From an uncultured Sulfurimonas sp. (GTDB lineage Bacteria > Campylobacterota > Campylobacteria > Campylobacterales > Sulfurimonadaceae): DNA of 32,443 nucleotides. Below the pieces are notes generated by a model, which was given only the letters and a program-made list of their open reading frames with translations, did not search any database and was not told the origin of the DNA. This document shows, in pieces, positions 1,469 to 3,469 of this stretch. Position 1 is the stretch's first letter. Each line of letters opens with the position of its first letter. Made by a program: the position numbers and the translations under genes. Where the stretch lies: contig CALCGG010000008.1 of the NCBI GenBank assembly GCA_937900945.1, positions 1-32,443 of the forward strand, in the 5' to 3' direction.

Positions 1469-2092
1469 ATGGGTATTGAAATAAGAAAGGCTGGTGTTAA
1501 GGATGCTTCATTTTTAGCACAAATGATATTACAAAGTAGTAGAGCTGGAAAGAAGTCGGGTCTGTTTGATTTGATCTTTGAGAGTAATGATAATGAAAAA
1601 ATATTGAAATGTTTAGAAGCTTTAACTCAAACTGTGGCAAAGAATCATTGTCATTATGAGAATTTTTTAATTGCTGAACTTGATGGACAAAGTGTTGGTA
1701 CACTTTGCAGTTATGAGCCTAGAATCGCTACGAAGCAGGCTTTTGAGGATGCTTTACAAGAAGTTGGCTGCAGTGAAGATTTAGAGGAAAGTTTAGAGGT
1801 TCTGTATCAGTGTGATTTCAAGCTTAACACAAGAACTTTAATGTTTGATTTTATGGAAGAGCTGGAAGGTTTTGTTGATGTTGGGGTTTTAAAATCTCTT
1901 ATGCAAAAAAGCCTGCTTACCGCAAGATTGAAAGGTTATCGTATAGCACAGGCTATTGTTGAAATAGGTTCATTGGAAACTTTGTTGTTTTACAAAAAAT
2001 TAGGATTCAAAGAAGTTCAGGAAAAAGAGTGTGAACTTTATAAAGAGAAGTTTGGAAGAATCGGTTTAGTCCTTTTAGCTATAGAGTTTTAA
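1469..2092 (+). CDS. GNAT-family N-acetyltransferase
   Basis: The 207-residue protein opens with IEIRKAGVKDASFLAQMI, the usual first strand and helix of GNAT enzymes. It has a central strand LIAELDGQSVGTLCSYEP and ends with LLFYKKLGFKEVQEKEC, the typical C-terminal GNAT motif. The middle section (about residues 85-150) is longer than in minimal GNATs and is acidic. The substrate cannot be told from sequence. A purine-rich AGAAG precedes the ATG at 1469. The stop TAA lies in the same reading frame as the downstream NhaC-like gene and overlaps that gene's Shine-Dalgarno sequence, so the two are probably cotranscribed and translationally coupled. Confidence 0.8.
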   Translation: MGIEIRKAGVKDASFLAQMILQSSRAGKKSGLFDLIFESNDNEKILKCLEALTQTVAKNHCHYENFLIAELDGQSVGTLCSYEPRIATKQAFEDALQEVGCSEDLEESLEVLYQCDFKLNTRTLMFDFMEELEGFVDVGVLKSLMQKSLLTARLKGYRIAQAIVEIGSLETLLFYKKLGFKEVQEKECELYKEKFGRIGLVLLAIEF

Positions 2093-2101
2093 GGAACTCC
2101 C

Positions 2102-3469
2102 ATAGAACTTTCAGCCCTTTCTCTTTTACCCCCGTTACTGGCAATATTTTTAGCCCTTTATTCAAAAAATGTACTTTTATCACTTCTAAGTGGAACAGTT
2201 TTAGGACTTTTTATCTTAAATGATTTTGCTTTTATTGCATCTCTAGGAGCTATTTTTGAGCTATTTTTCTCATTGCTCTCAGAGCCTTGGATACTCAAAA
2301 CTCTAGGTTTTGCTATTTTGGTCGGCAGTATAATGGCTTTGATTGAAAAATCTGGCGGGATTTATGGATTTGTACATTTTGTTCAAAATCAAAAGCAGTT
2401 GGTCACTTCTCCCCGTTCCGGTCTTTTACTTAGTTATGTAGTCGGTGTTGTTATTTTTGTCGAATCCTCCATCACTGCACTTATCTCGGGTGCAGTCGGA
2501 AAACCACTGTGTGATCATTATAAGATTCCACATGCAAAGCTGGCCTATGTGTGTGATTCTACATCTGCACCTGTTAGTTCTCTCATCGTTTTAAACGGCT
2601 GGGGAGCACTTTTACTTGGACTTATCTCTACTCAAATAACAGAGGGGATGATAAGCGGAAGCAGCATAGATATTTTAATAGATGCTGTTTTGTATAATTT
2701 TTATGCCATGAGTGCTCTGGGAGTCACTTTTTTAGTTATATGGTTTGGCATAGATATCGGTCCGATGAAATATGCCGAGTACAACCCTTCTTCACATGTA
2801 AAAGAAAATGTTAAGCAAGTAAGTAAATACTATATGATTTTGCCAATAATTCTGATGGTATTGATGGTTTTTGTATTTTTATATATCACAGGAGATGGAA
2901 ATATCTTAAAAGGGAGCGGTTCAAGTTCTATATTTTACACTATGCTGACTACGCTTATTTTTATGCTTTTTTATTATGTAGGTACAAAAAATATGAGTTT
3001 TTCAACATGGGGAAGTACCGCTTTTAAAGGGGGTGTAAAATTTGTTCCAATAGCTCTTATTTTACTCTTTGCATTTTCAATAGGAAAAGTCACGATGGAA
3101 CTTAAAACAGGACTTTATCTTGCATCTTTGGCAAGCGAAAATTTAAATGTCCACTTTTTGTCAGGAGCAATCTTTTTGCTTAGTTCTGTCATAGCATTTG
3201 CCACAGGGACAAGCTGGGGAACTTTCAGCATCATGATACCGGTTGCCGTGCCGATGGCTGTTGGCATGGATGCGAATGTTGCACTTGCCATCGGGGCTGT
3301 AATCTCTGGCGGTGTTTTTGGCGACCACTGTTCACCTATTTCGGATACAACTATCATCTCGTCTATGGCAAGTGATTGTGAAGTTATCGAACATGTAAGA
3401 ACTCAGCTTCCTTATGCCTTAATCTCTGGGCTCATTGCATTAGTCTTTTTTATTGTTTTTAGTTTTTAA
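2102..3469 (+). CDS. NhaC-family Na+/H+ antiporter, probable AUA start
   Basis: This is a multi-pass inner-membrane protein with NhaC-superfamily signatures: SLLPPLLAIFLALYS near the N-terminus, STSAPVSSLIVLNGWGA, the late TGTSWGTFSIMIPVAVPMA and the hallmark GGVFGDHCSPISDTTIIS. The family exchanges Na+ (or amino-acid-like substrates) against H+. The ORF track starts at TTG 2273, which would remove the first one or two membrane helices. In frame upstream the coding sense runs back to the GNAT stop without any ATG, GTG or TTG. The only start with a good ribosome site is ATA at 2102, six bases after AAGGA (2091-2095), giving 455 residues. Either AUA is really used or the ATG has been mutated. 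Coding content and family are clear; the start is the uncertain part. Confidence 0.8.
   Translation: MELSALSLLPPLLAIFLALYSKNVLLSLLSGTVLGLFILNDFAFIASLGAIFELFFSLLSEPWILKTLGFAILVGSIMALIEKSGGIYGFVHFVQNQKQLVTSPRSGLLLSYVVGVVIFVESSITALISGAVGKPLCDHYKIPHAKLAYVCDSTSAPVSSLIVLNGWGALLLGLISTQITEGMISGSSIDILIDAVLYNFYAMSALGVTFLVIWFGIDIGPMKYAEYNPSSHVKENVKQVSKYYMILPIILMVLMVFVFLYITGDGNILKGSGSSSIFYTMLTTLIFMLFYYVGTKNMSFSTWGSTAFKGGVKFVPIALILLFAFSIGKVTMELKTGLYLASLASENLNVHFLSGAIFLLSSVIAFATGTSWGTFSIMIPVAVPMAVGMDANVALAIGAVISGGVFGDHCSPISDTTIISSMASDCEVIEHVRTQLPYALISGLIALVFFIVFSF

Follow-up and report, generated by a model that had tools for sequence, protein, structure and literature searches.

A putative AUA/AUC start codon maintained in an NhaC-family transporter gene across most of the Sulfurimonadaceae

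Organization of the Locus

The window, i.e., the whole analysed DNA stretch of 32,443 nucleotides from an uncultured Sulfurimonas sp. (contig CALCGG010000008.1), carries a GNAT-like gene followed by an NhaC-family transporter gene, with a stop codon, a Shine-Dalgarno (SD)-like motif and an apparent AUA start at the junction of the two (Table 1). The spacer between AAGGA and the ATA is ACTCCC (2096–2101), and the ATA is in frame with the GNAT-like TAA, with GGA ACT CCC in between. These coordinates agree with the original prediction, which placed AAGGA six bases before the ATA and had it overlap the in-frame GNAT stop. It had also held that coding extends 57 codons 5' of the TTG picked by ORF calling and that this extension holds no ATG, GTG or TTG. 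Both statements were borne out by a re-scan of the frame, which is open from the ATA to its stop (455 codons), has this TTG (codon 58) as its first canonical codon and contains none between the GNAT-like TAA and position 2273.

Table 1. Features of the GNAT-like/NhaC-family junction (window positions).
Feature	Positions	Strand	Basis
GNAT-like gene, 207 aa	1469..2092	+	ORF; homologue upstream in 130/130 testable loci
Possible hairpin across the stop/start junction; no selection across genus	2078..2115	+	
TAA stop of GNAT-like gene, overlaps SD-like motif	2090..2092	+	
AAGGA, SD-like motif, six bases 5' of ATA	2091..2095	+	
Apparent AUA start codon, NhaC-family gene	2102..2104	+	Family-wide codon comparison
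NhaC-family transporter gene, 455 codons plus stop	2102..3469	+	Pfam PF03553, 144 bits; structure model
TTG picked by ORF calling, codon 58; judged non-start	2273..2275	+	

The protein read from the ATA matches the Pfam family Na_H_antiporter (PF03553) with 144 bits against a cut-off of 23, while the NCBIfam equivalog antiport_nhaC (TIGR00931) gives 55.8 bits against a cut-off of 370; by these profiles the transporter is assigned to the Na_H_antiporter superfamily, whereas the equivalog model does not place it in NhaC proper. The named homologues are mostly from Sulfurimonas sp. A structure model from the ATA, built with a 29-sequence alignment, reached a mean pLDDT of 88, and its best PDB structure match was MleN, itself an integrative model (TM 0.69/0.68, E 8.9e-7), pointing to a member-like fold; the PDB search by sequence profile gave no match. 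Residues 5–60 are modelled confidently as three helices (5–21, 24–39, and 44–60), all of which a start at codon 58 is predicted to remove. The GNAT label of the upstream gene goes back to a weak Pfam match below cut-off (Acetyltransf_7, E 0.012).

Conservation of the Start Codon

Homologous loci were gathered from the genus and the family, and the codon aligned to residue 1 of the window protein was read in each; for a few loci (genus g28, L024), where the start is offset by a few codons, the rule was a near-cognate codon followed by GAN. Among 137 distinct loci of the window's family, the start-position codon is ATA in 105, ATC in 16, ATG in 14, TTG in two and ATT in none, i.e., ATA or ATC (AUH) in 121 of 137; within the window's genus (n = 104) the figures are 92 ATA, one ATC and 11 ATG. 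Internal isoleucine codons of the same genes are most commonly ATT (2541), followed by ATA (2438) and ATC (1920). The loci without AUH carry ATG or TTG either at the AUH position or one codon upstream (10 of the 14 ATG starts lie one codon earlier and four at the same position), as expected for a start codon. In loci L062, L092, and L159 the start-position codon comes immediately after an in-frame stop. The start is less certain in six AUH loci, where a canonical codon occurs in frame after the upstream stop and before the AUH. As a separate observation, the NhaC-family frames of L004, L053, and L079 contain internal stops or a frameshift and may represent assembly errors or pseudogenes.

On a phylogeny built without the start codon (FastTree only), the full start codon changes 13 times. 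Its third letter changes seven times among the 121 AUH loci, compared with 23–51 times (mean 41) for the third letter at 14 conserved columns where nearly all loci have isoleucine. A low third-letter count alone is not unique, as some conserved phenylalanine columns change as rarely, but no isoleucine column comes near. The position appears to evolve as a selected start codon, unlike an internal isoleucine: the codon lies outside AUG/GUG/UUG, no usable canonical codon is nearby, and its retention in 121 of 137 loci with seven against 23–51 changes argues that selection keeps it across species. Relatives with an ATG at the site, named beforehand as evidence to the contrary, account for only 14 of the 137 loci and about four changes on the tree. 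The codon comparison across the family thus supports the original prediction that AUA is the NhaC-family start; on these sequences, initiation at 2102 is well supported, and the AUA/AUC start seems to be a maintained feature across most of the family.

A sequence error or a start-codon mutation had been offered as alternatives, and the window does come from a draft assembly of 244 contigs. Yet, the frame, the codon and its position behind the GNAT-like gene are conserved in more than 100 other genomes, and since the same codon recurs in so many independent genomes, error and recent mutation are rejected; editing of AUA into an AUG-like codon fares no better, as A-to-I conversion cannot turn AUC (16 loci) into an AUG-like start. 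We give this group of explanations practically no credence. Translation could instead begin inside the frame, at the TTG at 2273, the first canonical codon, or at another such codon. Eighteen loci, the window included, have no canonical codon ahead of codon 58, and in the other loci those within the first 57 codons are scattered, with no position in common. Initiation at 2273 would thus lack a counterpart common to the relatives and would cost the protein conserved sequence along with the three predicted helices; on the scattered codons and the structure model an internal start was ruled out and is, in our estimate, very improbable.

The Upstream Gene and the Junction

In each of the 130 loci whose upstream DNA is long enough, a GNAT-like homologue lies directly 5' of the NhaC-family gene. 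The two frames are in register in the window, which speaks for the proposed GNAT-NhaC fusion by stop readthrough; however, relative to NhaC, the GNAT-like stop lies in phase 0, 1, and 2 in 50, 38, and 42 loci, respectively, and the gaps are variable. Stops in all three phases exclude a general fusion by readthrough or frameshift, and this explanation was discarded as scarcely credible.

With respect to spacing, 87 loci have a stop-to-start gap of 8–11 nt, and most of these, like the window, carry an SD-like motif at the stop. In 27 of the 130 loci the gap is 1–2 nt and a recognisable SD is mostly absent. A strong or extended SD, reported for the Staphylococcus aureus cases and not defining for conserved non-canonical starts, is not typical here: the longest match to TAAGGAGGT does not exceed 4 in 99 of 137 loci, nor 3 in 26 of the 27 loci with the 1–2 nt gap. 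In the sister family f4 (L161–L176) and in genome L347, no GNAT-like match was found near the NhaC-family gene, which there typically has an AAAGGAG-type SD and starts mostly with TTG or GTG (ATG in L174). Within the window's family, it seems, the AUH start and the GNAT-like neighbour occur together, a single clade-level correlation that is not proof of cause.

The junction could also fold: in the window, the end of the GNAT-like gene, stop included, can pair with nucleotides at the start of NhaC (z −2.27), and the codon might be kept for this RNA hairpin and not for start strength. Across the genus, however, the hairpin displays no covariation and gains no stability over synonymously recoded sequences (p 0.88), AUG in place of AUA would fold equally well, and the hairpin is largely absent in other genera keeping AUA/AUC. 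A search against Rfam gave no match. In view of the missing covariation and excess stability, the hairpin was rejected as the reason for AUA, and we judge this explanation quite improbable.

Rarity of AUH Starts in These Genomes

In the related genome G012, 1.2 Mb (about 1180 genes) were surveyed for coding potential, and 243 ortholog pairs were compared between G012 and G005. Together these revealed only two other genes in which conserved coding precedes every canonical start, tex and a gene for a VTT-domain protein; most other cases flagged by the survey, judged by eye, were leaders ahead of an SD and a canonical start. Both approaches overlook a gene whose true start is closely followed by a canonical codon, so the count of AUH starts is a lower bound; the coding-potential survey missed even the NhaC-family gene of G012, which has an in-frame TTG upstream. 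The tex gene has an apparent ATT start in six related genomes (L267–L272; e.g., G012:C1:112315-114411, minus strand); in other Sulfurimonas, of which the window's own genome (L274) is one, this start is mostly ATG. The small VTT-domain-like membrane protein, whose Pfam match is below cut-off, has an apparent ATA/ATC start in 13 of 30 Sulfurimonas loci (L297–L326), among them that of the window's own genome (L305; G000:C196, near 2137), and the rest mostly ATG. No tRNA anomaly was found in the 1.2 Mb sampled, which is part of the genome and holds two Met(CAU) and one Ile(GAU). In most of these Campylobacterales genomes, infC (L177–L205) has a TTG start.

A Proposed Role of the Weak Start

We consider it probable, given the conservation and the gene context, that the weak AUA start serves low transporter synthesis, with the ratio set by coupling to translation of the GNAT-like gene. 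IF3 discriminates against start triplets without a 3' G (PMC4611024), and AUA and AUC, being such triplets, would be read poorly by initiator fMet-tRNA. This poor reading would hold transporter output low; by analogy, attenuation of transporter synthesis by AUA/AUC is likely. Conserved AUA/AUU starts of S. aureus reach, in poor medium, about 10% of the output of AUG (PMC13009471). Most NhaC-family initiation would come from ribosomes completing the GNAT-like gene, the stop of which overlaps the ribosome-binding site or sits directly before the start. The presence of the GNAT-like gene in every testable locus points to such translational coupling, which we regard as likely from the spacing. Weak codon and coupling together would fix the transporter at a low ratio to the GNAT-like protein, a ratio that the state of the initiation machinery may tune; gating of the transporter start by IF3 is possible by the same analogy.

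The two spacing classes may differ in this respect. In Escherichia coli and Haloferax, reinitiation is best at overlaps and nearly lost at about 20 nt (PMC10666635), and this steep loss with distance makes the 1–2 nt class the better candidate for true reinitiation. In the 8–11 nt class, initiation may be of the ordinary SD-driven kind, at a site just cleared by the upstream ribosome.

Alternatively, the AUA/AUC start could be a regulatory gate of the kind proposed for ccpN and sigR, through which IF3 activity or growth state changes transporter synthesis, with the GNAT-like neighbour mattering little. In other bacteria, codons of this class respond to IF3 (PMC4611024; PMC5472188), the output of the ccpN AUA depends on the medium, rising from about 10% of that of AUG to about 30% in rich medium (PMC13009471), and two more AUH-start genes occur in the genus. 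The GNAT-like gene, however, adjoins in every testable locus, which favours coupling, and we hold a gate of this kind to be unlikely. Its broader form is more doubtful still: in the Sulfurimonadaceae, AUH starts would serve by design as a low-fidelity gate of initiation on a few genes, namely the NhaC-family transporter family-wide and, in parts of the genus, tex and the VTT-domain membrane protein. If true, ion transport would respond directly at translation to changes in the activity of IF3 or in the stringency of initiation.

With coupled, attenuated synthesis as the preferred explanation, the locus is of interest for two reasons. Few conserved non-canonical starts are known, and ancestral reconstruction found a change from AUG to AUU in only 1 of 61,358 ancestral AUG starts (PMC5622118); a family-wide transporter start of AUA/AUC behind an upstream stop would offer a natural test of why an inefficient start persists. 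Moreover, ORF calling limited to ATG, GTG, and TTG is expected to pick a wrong start in most of these genomes and to lose membrane helices from the predicted protein.

Comparison with Known Systems

The infC gene starts with AUA in S. aureus (PMC13009471), ATT in E. coli and ATC in Streptomyces (PMC5472188), and the NhaC-family gene resembles it in having a start that lacks a 3' G and that IF3 is expected to disfavour. Yet, infC encodes IF3 itself and lies elsewhere in the genome, whereas the NhaC-family gene encodes a transporter; as this is not a translation factor, there is no obvious feedback loop. In these genomes, infC itself has mostly TTG in place of the AUU, AUC or AUA of other bacteria, and an IF3 feedback like that of E. 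coli infC was rejected on this ground.

Pairs of genes linked by termination-reinitiation are similar in that stop and start are 1–2 nt apart in the corresponding NhaC-family class (27/130). In the loci described here, stop and start do not overlap and are mostly 8–11 nt apart with an SD-like motif at the stop, and the NhaC-family start codon is non-canonical; a link between the two genes is suggested by their spacing.

The sigR gene of Streptomyces likewise has a non-canonical start misplaced by gene callers. In sigR the codon is GTC and repression by IF3 is reported (PMC5472188); the NhaC-family gene has AUA/AUC, on which an effect of IF3 is predicted. In turn, ccpN of Staphylococcus and Bacillus encodes a repressor and has an extended SD, while the gene described here encodes a transporter in a different phylum, with a modest or absent motif after a GNAT-like stop; the two have in common that an AUA start outside infC appears to be kept across distant lineages.
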